This document shows, piece by piece, positions 41,476-46,125 of a stretch of DNA of 64,000 bases. The stretch is from Geothrix sp. GTDB lineage: Bacteria > Acidobacteriota > Holophagae > Holophagales > Holophagaceae. Position 1 is the stretch's first letter; every line of letters starts with the position of its first letter. The notes under the pieces are model-generated. The model saw only the letters and a list, made by a program, of their open reading frames with translations, was not told the DNA's origin and searched no databases. The position numbers and the translations under genes are program-made. Location: positions 1,538,857 through 1,602,856 of the forward strand of contig NZ_CP126625.1 of NCBI RefSeq assembly GCF_030219325.1, in the 5' to 3' direction.

Positions 41476-43041
41476 CTAGAGGCTGTCCCAGTCGGTCTTG
41501 AGGGCGCTCGCCACGGGTTCCGGAGGTTTGGTCGCGGTGATCGGAGCCCACCCACCCTGGCCCTGCACGGACATCCACCGGGTGAACCCGTCGAGGACCG
41601 GCTGACAGCCCGAGTGGGTGCCGTGGCCGGTGAAGGACAACAGGGCGGTCCGGTCATCGAGGGTGGTGTTGACGCGGGCGATGTCCGTCCGGCCCGCCCG
41701 CTGGAACAGCTCGATGGGAGCGGATTCCCGAGTGTAGAGGCTGATCGTGGCGCCCGACGTGGAGTCGGCGATCCAACCCAGGGCTTCGCCCAGGTCCTGG
41801 AAGGTGCACAGGTTCACCGTGGGGCCCGTCACCTGGTGGCGGAACAGCCCCATGTCGGCGGTCACGCCCTCCCAGACGCAGGGCTGCATGTAGACGCCAT
41901 GGGAGATCTCGCCCTTCACCTGGGCCGTGCGGTTGGCCTCGGTCCACTGGGCGCCGCCGGTGAGCAGCGTTGCGCCCTGGGCCAGGCCCAGGTCCCAGTG
42001 CTCGCGGAACGCCGTGGCCGCGCGGGCGTTGATCATGGGGCCGTAAGCCACGTCCGGATGCGTCAGGGGGTTGCCCACCTCCAGGGTGGCGACGCGATCC
42101 AGGAGGCGCTGTCGGAACACCGCCGCGCAGGCCTCGTGCACAAGGAGGTTGACCAAGCCGATGGGGCGCTGGCCGGCCTGGCCGAAGGCGGCCTGGACGG
42201 CATCGTCCGCCGCCCGGTCCAGGTCGGCGTCCGGCAGGATCACCAGGCTGCCTTTCCCCACCAGGTCCAGGCTTGGCAGGATGAGGTTCCGGCCGCAGGC
42301 CTCCCCCACGATGCGTCCCAGGGAGGCCGAGCCCACGAAGCTGAAGGACTGGAAGTGACCCTTGTCGATGCCCGCCAGGAAGTGCTTGCCGCAGCCGGCC
42401 CGGCCCCGGCCGTTGACCGTATTCACCACGCCTGGAGGGAGGCCCGCCTCCATCATGGCCCGGAGGAGCAGGTAGGCAGCGGTGGGGGCGTTGTCGCTGG
42501 GCTTCCAGACGACGGTGTTGCCGCAGAGGATGGCGGGCAGGATCTTGCAGGCGGGGGCCGCCAGGGGAGAACTGCCCGTGGCGAGGACGCCACAGACGCC
42601 CACGGGCCGGCGACGCGGGCCGGCACCTGCCGGAAGCTCCTGGGCCCCGACGGCGGCCGCGAAGAAGGCGCAGGCGTCGATGGCCTCCTGGACATCCCCC
42701 AGGGCCTCCCGGGGGGTCATGCCGACTTCGCGGGTGATGATGCGGGCCAGCTTGTCCCGGTGGGCGGTCAGGATGCCGGCCGCGCGGAGCACGATGGCCT
42801 CCCGGGCCGGGAAGGGGGTTCCGGACCAGGCGGGGAAGGCGTCCGCGGCGGCCTTGGCGGCCCGGGCCACATCCTTCTCGCCGCTGTCGGGGAACATGCC
42901 CACCAGATCCCGGCTGTCCACGGCGGACTTGGACTGGATCAGGGAGAGGTCGCCCTCGACCTCCTTGCCATTGATCAGGTTGAACCCAATGACGCTCTTT
43001 CCCGCGGCAGCGGCATGGGGCGAGTTGGCTTTCACATACAT
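41476..43041 (-). CDS. Aldehyde dehydrogenase-fold protein lacking the catalytic residues (pseudoenzyme)
   Basis: A 521-aa ALDH superfamily protein with a recognisable NAD(P) fold: KILPAILCGNTVVWKPS, FSFVGSASLGRIVGEACGRN, DLVGKGSLVILPDADLDRA and AFGQAGQRPIGLVNLLVHEA. The catalytic Cys (GQRC) is Pro293, the oxyanion Asn of the PWNFP motif is Ser157 (TGSSPL), the general-base Glu (LELGGK) is Asp259, and the Glu of EIFGP is Gln403 (HQVTGP). The Lys of VVWKPS is kept, so it may still bind NAD(P). ATG 43041 has GGAG upstream. It cannot act as an ordinary aldehyde dehydrogenase and may be regulatory or have another reaction. Confidence 0.85.
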   Translation of the reverse strand: MYVKANSPHAAAAGKSVIGFNLINGKEVEGDLSLIQSKSAVDSRDLVGMFPDSGEKDVARAAKAAADAFPAWSGTPFPAREAIVLRAAGILTAHRDKLARIITREVGMTPREALGDVQEAIDACAFFAAAVGAQELPAGAGPRRRPVGVCGVLATGSSPLAAPACKILPAILCGNTVVWKPSDNAPTAAYLLLRAMMEAGLPPGVVNTVNGRGRAGCGKHFLAGIDKGHFQSFSFVGSASLGRIVGEACGRNLILPSLDLVGKGSLVILPDADLDRAADDAVQAAFGQAGQRPIGLVNLLVHEACAAVFRQRLLDRVATLEVGNPLTHPDVAYGPMINARAATAFREHWDLGLAQGATLLTGGAQWTEANRTAQVKGEISHGVYMQPCVWEGVTADMGLFRHQVTGPTVNLCTFQDLGEALGWIADSTSGATISLYTRESAPIELFQRAGRTDIARVNTTLDDRTALLSFTGHGTHSGCQPVLDGFTRWMSVQGQGGWAPITATKPPEPVASALKTDWDSL

Positions 43042-43152: not shown

Positions 43153-43902
43153 GTGTTCGATAGCATCTCCATCCCCACCATCCTCGTCAGCTATGTGGCC
43201 CTGCTGTTCAGCCTCAGCGTCCACGAGGCCAGCCATGCCACCGTGGCCTACTGGCTGGAGGACGACACCGCCGCCCGCTTGGGGCGCATGACGCTGAATC
43301 CGCTGGCCCATATCGATCCCCTCGGCACGGTGGTCTTCCCCCTTCTGGGCATGGCCACGGGGTTTCCCTTCATCGGCTGGGCCAAGCCCGTGCCCGTGGA
43401 CCCCCGGAATTTGACCCGTCGCTTCACCCAGAGGGGTGGCATGGCCATCGTGTCCGCGGCCGGGCCTGCCTCGAATTTGGTGCTGGCCGTGATCTTCCTG
43501 TCCCTCCTTCTGATCCTGGTAAAGCTCGTGGCACCGCCCCGGGAGCTTGAGCTGCGCCTCTTTGTCCATGCCTTGTTCGCACGGAAGGTTGAGAACCTGC
43601 AGGCCCTGGAACTGGGCACCGGAATGACGCTGGCCCTGGCCATGACTGGCCGTCTGGTGCTCATCAACATCGGGCTCGCCCTGTTCAACCTGCTTCCCAT
43701 GGGACCTCTGGATGGTTCTGGAATCCTGCGGGGCCTGTTGCCCTGGCGTTGGCTTCCGAAATACGACCGCGTCCAGCCCTGGATGGGTGGGGCCTTGATC
43801 GTACTGGCCCTTACGGGTCTGCTGGGTTACGTCATCGGCCCTGTCTTCGGGTTGATTCTTTCGGGCATCGAAGCTGTCGCCCGCGTTTTTCTTGGAGCCT
43901 GA
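43153..43902 (+). CDS. Site-2 protease family (M50) membrane metalloprotease
   Basis: A 249-aa intramembrane zinc protease of the RseP/SpoIVFB fold (short, 'YwhC-like' type). HEASH at 24-28 (H-E-x2-H) and GPLDGSGILRGLLPW (third ligand Asp near the end) are the metal site; about five to six spans. It contains no PDZ domain. The likely role is cleavage of a membrane-bound regulator, substrate unknown. GTG 43153 has GGAG upstream. It is 3 bases from trpS, so the two are co-transcribed, and divergent from the ALDH-like gene. Confidence 0.88.
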   Translation: MFDSISIPTILVSYVALLFSLSVHEASHATVAYWLEDDTAARLGRMTLNPLAHIDPLGTVVFPLLGMATGFPFIGWAKPVPVDPRNLTRRFTQRGGMAIVSAAGPASNLVLAVIFLSLLLILVKLVAPPRELELRLFVHALFARKVENLQALELGTGMTLALAMTGRLVLINIGLALFNLLPMGPLDGSGILRGLLPWRWLPKYDRVQPWMGGALIVLALTGLLGYVIGPVFGLILSGIEAVARVFLGA

Positions 43903-45159: not shown

Positions 45160-45228
45160 TCCTGATTGAGGAAGCCGATCCCCGAGGGGGATCCGGGCTT
45201 GAAAAGCAGGGTTGCCGGGAGGAACACC

Positions 45229-46125
45229 GTGGATCTGAAACGCGCCATCATCGACCTCATGCCCGGCCCCCTGGTCCGGACCTTCGCCGCCCCGTACATC
45301 TCGGGCAAGGGCATCGCCAGCGGAGTCACCAAGGCCGACGAGTTGCACGCGAAGCTGGGCATCTCGTCCACGGTGGATCTGCTGGCCGAGGAGGTCTTCA
45401 GCCGCGAGGACGTGGAAGCGACGGTGCAGGTCTACCTGCGCATGGTCGAGGCCCTGAAGGACCGCCCCTTCGCCAGCATCAGCCTCAAGCCGACCTCGCT
45501 GGGCATCAACGAGAGCGAGGAGTACTGCCAGGCCAACCTGCGGCGCATCGTGTCCGCTGCCGCCGTTCACGGCATGCACATCACCCTCGACATGGAAGAC
45601 CGGCACTTCACGGACGTGACGCTGCGGATGTTCAAGGCGATCCGCGACGAGTTCGACAACTTCGGGATCGTCCTCCAGAGCCGCCTGTTCCGCACCGCCG
45701 AGGACATCAAGAACCTCCATGCGAAGCGCTGCAAGGTGCGCATCTGCATCGGCATCTACAAGGAGCCCGCCGACGTGGCACTCCAGGAGAAGCCGGACAT
45801 GAAGGACAGGCTCTTCGAGCTCGTGCAGCTCCTGCTGGAGCACGGCCACTATCCCGAGATCGCCACCCATGACGAGCCGCTGGTCCGGCGCTGCATGGCG
45901 TACCTCGACCAGCAGGGCGTGGCGAAGGATGCCTACGAGTTCCAGATGCTGCTGGGCGTGCCCCGCACGGAACTGCAGCAGGAGATCGTCAAGCGCGGCC
46001 AGATCGTGCGCCTCTACGTGCCCTTCGCGGAGGACTGGAAGTACGCGGTCCACTACCTCAAGCGCCGCCTCGCCGCCAACCCCGCCATGGCGCTCATGGT
46101 CATGAAGAACATGTTCGGCAGCTGA
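45229..46125 (+). CDS. Proline dehydrogenase (monofunctional)
   Basis: FAD enzyme oxidising proline to pyrroline-5-carboxylate. The 298 aa form one PRODH barrel: SISLKPTSLGINESEEYCQA, GMHITLDMEDRHFTDVTLRM, FGIVLQSRLFRTAEDIKNLH, RICIGIYKEPADVALQEKPD and IATHDEPLVRR, with YLKRRLAANPAMALMV at the C-terminus, match the small PutB-type family. GTG 45229 has GGGAGG upstream; a TTG at 45166 gives a poor leader. No P5C dehydrogenase fusion or neighbour is seen; the ALDH-like gene 2 kb away lacks catalytic residues and so is not a candidate. Confidence 0.9.
   Translation: MDLKRAIIDLMPGPLVRTFAAPYISGKGIASGVTKADELHAKLGISSTVDLLAEEVFSREDVEATVQVYLRMVEALKDRPFASISLKPTSLGINESEEYCQANLRRIVSAAAVHGMHITLDMEDRHFTDVTLRMFKAIRDEFDNFGIVLQSRLFRTAEDIKNLHAKRCKVRICIGIYKEPADVALQEKPDMKDRLFELVQLLLEHGHYPEIATHDEPLVRRCMAYLDQQGVAKDAYEFQMLLGVPRTELQQEIVKRGQIVRLYVPFAEDWKYAVHYLKRRLAANPAMALMVMKNMFGS

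Follow-up and report, generated by a model that had tools for sequence, protein, structure and literature searches.

An aldehyde dehydrogenase-fold protein of Geothrix that lost its catalytic centre and is probably kept as a nucleotide-binding pseudoenzyme

The structural, phylogenetic and codon-based comparisons presented here suggest that in Geothrix, a soil and sediment bacterium, a protein with the aldehyde dehydrogenase (ALDH) fold, P0001, is a non-catalytic pseudoenzyme that derives from an active ALDH at the same locus and is kept for (di)nucleotide binding, acting by binding, a reading to which we give a probability of about 0.6. The ligand would most likely be NAD(P)(H) or a different adenine nucleotide, bound but not turned over, and contact with a partner is probably part of what the protein does. 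Its gene lies in the 64,000-nucleotide stretch of DNA that was analysed (the window), and its features are collected in Table 1. A search of the literature turned up no ALDH pseudoenzyme described from Geothrix.

Table 1. Features of the P0001 gene, in window coordinates
Feature	Position	Strand	Observation
P0001, ALDH-fold pseudoenzyme gene	41476..43041	minus	ATG to stop, 521 aa plus stop, uninterrupted
Ser157 codon, oxyanion Asn replaced	42571..42573	minus	ALDHTt N159; N in 16/16 intact orthologues, 0/25 pseudoenzymes
Asp259 codon, general base Glu replaced	42265..42267	minus	ALDHTt E261; D20/E3 in core pseudoenzyme clade
Pro293 codon, nucleophile Cys replaced	42163..42165	minus	ALDHTt C295; Cys in 0/25 pseudoenzymes
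Gln403 codon, nicotinamide-ribose Glu replaced	41833..41835	minus	ALDHTt E404
Lys180 codon, kept adenosine-ribose contact	42502..42504	minus	ALDHTt K182; K in 25/25 pseudoenzymes, 16/16 intact
Ser238 codon, kept pyrophosphate contact in G-S-x-x-x-G	42328..42330	minus	ALDHTt S240; S in 25/25 pseudoenzymes
Arg340 codon, kept pyrophosphate contact	42022..42024	minus	ALDHTt R342; R in 25/25 pseudoenzymes
Residues 1-66, slow N-terminal block, candidate interaction face	42844..43041	minus	28-residue block 39-66 lowest of 493 windows
TDWDSL motif, end of C-terminal arm	41479..41496	minus	T516, D517, W518 and L521 invariant in 23 core pseudoenzymes; arm otherwise fast

The first-pass annotation had assigned P0001 to the ALDH fold, and this is borne out by sequence and structure alike. 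The protein scores 306.7 bits against Pfam Aldedh (cut-off 23) over residues 44-474, and its nearest solved relative is the Thermus thermophilus ALDH (ALDHTt; PDB IDs 6FJX, 6FK3, 6FKU and 6FKV), matched at about 350 bits over residues 9-494 (6FKU, 6FK3 and 6FJX). Structure prediction, which the annotation had proposed as a check, gave an AlphaFold (AF2) model with pLDDT 84 and pTM 0.86 from 36 relatives as input, and with this model Foldseek returned the Thermus enzyme first (6FK3, E 7.7e-54, TM 0.88). We infer that P0001 is a homo-oligomer. None of the NCBIfam ALDH equivalogs (P6C DH, KGSA DH, HpaE and others) reaches its cut-off for P0001, the best scoring 220.9 versus 750, and an intact orthologue likewise stays below (375.8 versus 770 bits). 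Identity as a piperideine-6-carboxylate dehydrogenase was rejected, as the model for that enzyme fits another gene, L001, which narrowly misses the cut-off of 730 with 729.8 bits. So was a part in proline catabolism through the nearby PRODH (45166-46125): a distinct gene of this genome (L003) scores above the cut-off for P5C dehydrogenase, and in other genera the intact orthologues have no PRODH next to them.

We located the active-site positions by alignment to ALDHTt, an active enzyme whose catalytic residues are published as Asn159, Glu261, Cys295 and Glu404 (PMC6127216). All four are intact in the Thermus enzyme, whereas all four are replaced in P0001, exactly where the annotation had placed the changes (N159 to S157, E261 to D259, C295 to P293 and E404 to Q403). 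To its further question, whether these substitutions are conserved among orthologues, the family alignment gives a divided answer: the loss of Cys and Asn is common to 25 genomes, but the exact replacements vary within the clade. Among the 23 core pseudoenzyme sequences position 293 is P15/L2/Q2/S2/A1/T1, position 157 is S16/A3/T2/C1/I1 and position 403 is Q16/P4/R2/H1, and only Asp259, a conservative change, is nearly fixed (20 of 23, the rest Glu). The changes also exceed these four residues, extending to the Phe170-, Trp177- and Gly-type tunnel positions (S158, A162, R/C165 and D453). Here Ser158, Ala162 and Asp453 are present in 23/23 (Asp453 is Glu in two sister sequences) and Arg165 in 22/25, and the S158, A162, D453 and R165 positions are F, V, G and W in the intact forms. 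Because the subclade to which the window belongs has Cys at position 165, we do not claim a buried new Arg165-Asp453 salt bridge. The ALDH reaction needs the Cys to form a thiohemiacetal (PMC6127216, PMC8160307), and with the Cys gone no thiohemiacetal is possible and therefore neither the dehydrogenase nor the esterase reaction; judged from its sequence and by the established ALDH mechanism, P0001 cannot perform ALDH chemistry.

The catalytic centre was lost once, long ago, within a large branch of Geothrix. Of 77 genomes from the family, 48 carry one copy each and none carries two (E<=1e-60), the named records with an orthologue being Geothrix and other Holophagaceae (Acidobacteriota). In the genus itself 25 copies lack the catalytic Cys and Asn and six, from basal Geothrix-group genomes, are intact, as are copies in other genera; thus the copy of Geothrix limicola Red804 has lost catalysis and that of Geothrix rubra Red803 is intact. 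The intact orthologues (for example that of Geothrix rubra Red803, record L098, and those of other Holophagaceae) share the M50-TrpS locus with P0001 at 47-61% identity and, unlike it, keep the N/E/C/E set. M50 and TrpS flank pseudoenzymes and intact copies alike, which makes this one and the same locus; the neighbours identified around P0001 are MltG, TlyA, M50, TrpS and PRODH. In a gene tree built with the catalytic columns excluded the 25 dead copies are monophyletic (100/99), with the intact Geothrix copies branching just outside and a transitional pair (L038 and L041, residues TEGQ), in which Glu259 is kept, as sister to the other 23. In a SecA species tree the 21 rows sampled from species that have a dead copy or lack the gene group together (100/100), and one state change is enough. 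A tree of five locus genes is in conflict, with intact species falling inside the pseudoenzyme clade, but the rows of these species are about 60% empty; because the intact species are largely missing data there, we prefer the single loss given by full-length SecA, and several losses or transfer within Geothrix were rejected. The annotation had held that close orthologues with an intact active site would mark a recently broken gene; such orthologues do exist (58-60% identity in the basal Geothrix-group genomes), yet the loss is old and common to 25 genomes.

The gene is not essential, as a full-length copy is missing from 16 of the 47 genomes of the genus, which points to an accessory role. In gene-less genomes TlyA directly adjoins M50, and the five junctions of this kind that we examined in Geothrix hold no remnant or half-decayed copy; G036 has a C-terminal piece broken off by the contig end and G038 a short piece on another contig. 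The locus varies in other ways too. The M50 protease gene (window 43153-43902) is only 53-59% identical in three Geothrix-group records (L056:5595-6332, L075:8774-9517 and L023:649-1395), as though a divergent allele had taken its place, the flanking genes being about 90% or more identical. Between pseudoenzyme and TlyA a PAS/histidine-kinase gene is inserted in L060 (9332-10723), and L059, L061, L062 and L073 have an unannotated gap of similar size there.

That the dead copies are nevertheless under selection is evident from codon models (GY+F3X4), which give an omega of 0.098 for the dead clade (23 of the 25 sequences), 0.035 for intact Geothrix and 0.041 for all intact copies. SecA shows no such rise in these species (omega 0.023 versus 0.036), and therefore the relaxation is confined to the pseudoenzyme gene and not genome-wide. 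The tree of 23 lineages shows no stop codon, although a neutral gene should have gathered about 460 stop-creating mutations on it (a rough estimate, the deep branches being near synonymous saturation), and decay is thereby rejected. The annotation had argued from full-length preservation against a decaying pseudogene and had proposed a dN/dS test, and on both counts, as with its broader suggestion of a conserved pseudoenzyme, the outcome agrees: a monophyletic clade of 25 genomes with one origin, in which the catalytic residues are gone and purifying selection acts across species.

Constraint, as read from the site rates (scaled in each group to its own mean), has moved onto the ADP half of the cofactor site and the N-terminal 60 residues and off the catalytic and tunnel positions. 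The ADP-half contacts of ALDHTt are Lys182, Ser184, Ser240 and Arg342 (PMC6127216), and their counterparts Lys180, Ser182, Ser238 and Arg340 are invariant in the 25 pseudoenzymes. ADP-half NAD(P) positions have a relative rate of 0.68 in intact copies but of 0.20 in the pseudoenzyme clade, and none of 5000 random sets was that low; for tunnel positions the rates are 0.52 and 1.29. We take these figures as supportive rather than final because both sets include neighbours that we picked by ALDH2/ALDHTt homology beyond the published contacts. The catalytic/nicotinamide positions run at 0.83, near average, in the pseudoenzyme clade and at 0.31 in intact copies. Residues 1-60, in 20-residue windows, show 0.23-0.44 in the pseudoenzyme clade against 1.13-1.42 in intact copies, and the fastest parts of the pseudoenzymes are the oligomerisation hairpin (121-140) and the C-terminal arm. 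By domain, omega rises in the clade from 0.058 (NAD/coenzyme) through 0.107 (catalytic) to 0.165 (hairpin plus arm), and with constraint on hairpin and arm relaxed the tetramer may be lost. Cofactor-site retention, which speaks for the option of NAD(P) binding that the annotation had raised, is thus backed by residue conservation, although the conservation of Lys180, Ser182, Ser238 and Arg340 could alternatively serve folding.

How might such a protein have arisen? Outside Geothrix an FAD oxidase of the sarcosine-oxidase/DAO type divergently adjoins the ALDH in 16 of the 17 genomes with an orthologue, while in the genus it is present in 1 of 47. Two such oxidase genes (L067:6134-7507 and L068:9092-10333), each in a divergent pair with an intact ALDH, fall below all NCBIfam cut-offs, and oxidase and intact ALDH form a probable, uncharacterised amine-oxidase plus aldehyde-dehydrogenase pathway. 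A plausible history is that the genus lost this divergently transcribed amine-oxidase-like neighbour, that the need for aldehyde oxidation would then have gone and catalysis disappeared once in one branch, and that the ALDH fold was re-used, selection holding on to the N-terminal coenzyme-binding domain and the ADP-half residues; the strongly conserved N-terminal block would be the surface by which the nucleotide is presented to, or sensed for, a partner, and the gene would later have been cleanly deleted in several species. Loss of the oxidase first is not general, because a second Cys-less Holophagaceae genus (L046:5921-7438, L048:2310-3827, L049:5293-6810 and L050:5126-6640) still has it. 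In this independent loss the Cys became Arg and the Asn became Ile, Val or Ala, both Glu were kept, the pyrophosphate Ser changed to Gly or Ala, and the copies are under strong constraint (omega 0.049). The same genus has at the locus a TrpS of another type, about 36% identical (L070:4021-5001 and L071:10995-11975). Two further variants were seen, one with NDRE and the Cys displaced by one residue (GQCR; L051:3358-4728) and one with the Cys kept and Val in place of the oxyanion Asn (L047:5825-7342). We would only tentatively go as far as a free-standing ALDH turned wholesale, with no active copy left, into a sensor or carrier of NAD(P) or adenine nucleotide working via its N-terminal face, with the second genus as a parallel.

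Against a binding role one may set a re-purposed enzyme whose emptied pocket runs another, non-thiol chemistry via Arg165, Ser158, Asp259 and Asp453. The new clade-fixed pocket residues described above would fit such a chemistry, but position 293 and the other nicotinamide/catalytic positions vary freely, at a relative rate of 0.83, the window's own subclade has Cys instead of Arg165, and the loss of the nicotinamide-ribose Glu makes hydride chemistry unlikely, so that we think this reading improbable. ALDHs are oligomeric. This, together with the Cys-less AldDH that adjoins an active one in glycyl-radical microcompartment loci (PMC4207490), lends some appeal to the idea of a regulatory subunit that assembles into mixed oligomers together with one of the cell's active ALDHs, yet no genome has a second family copy at E<=1e-60, the genome's remaining ALDHs fit different families, among them P5C dehydrogenase and a P6C dehydrogenase-like one, and the expected interfaces (hairpin and C-terminal arm) evolve fastest; we rate it lower still.

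A dispensable relic that decays after loss of its FAD oxidase partner and still awaits erasure would explain an omega about 2.5 times that of the intact orthologues and the clean absence of the gene from several species. This we consider very improbable when omega lies far under 1 and no stop has arisen across 23 lineages, some parts of the protein are relatively slower than in intact enzymes, and the gene-less junctions hold no half-decayed copy. An artefact of sequencing, frame or alignment has next to no likelihood, the same residues being lost in 25 independent genomes, finished ones (G011, G033 and G035) among them, and the intact forms aligning unambiguously.

ALDH pseudoenzymes are already known, in ALDH16A1 and in glycyl-radical microcompartments, and the Geothrix case differs from these in its sole-copy status and its preserved transition. 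Human ALDH16A1 is a recognised pseudoenzyme that lacks the catalytic residues on an ALDH fold, as P0001 does, and is described as a binding protein (PMC8160307, PMC10650815), but ALDH16 has a large extra non-functional cofactor-binding domain, whereas P0001, of another subfamily, is a single Aldedh unit of 521 aa with no extra C-terminal ALDH-like domain. Loci of GRM1 microcompartments encode a bacterial AldDH in which the catalytic Cys is similarly replaced, by Ser or Pro (PMC4207490); that protein accompanies an active AldDH as an additional copy, whereas P0001 has no other member of its family in the genome and stands among MltG, TlyA, M50, TrpS and PRODH, a neighbourhood in which we noticed no gene for a shell protein.

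Pseudoenzymes have mostly been studied in animals, often beside an active paralogue. Here a single syntenic locus retains the active ancestor, a transitional pair and a dead clade, as well as a second, independent case of loss and outright deletions of the gene, and these stages survive in cultured and uncultured bacteria. For the dead clade the annotation 'aldehyde dehydrogenase' is wrong, and since all stages survive at one locus, the order in which the steps towards a binding protein were taken can be tested directly.
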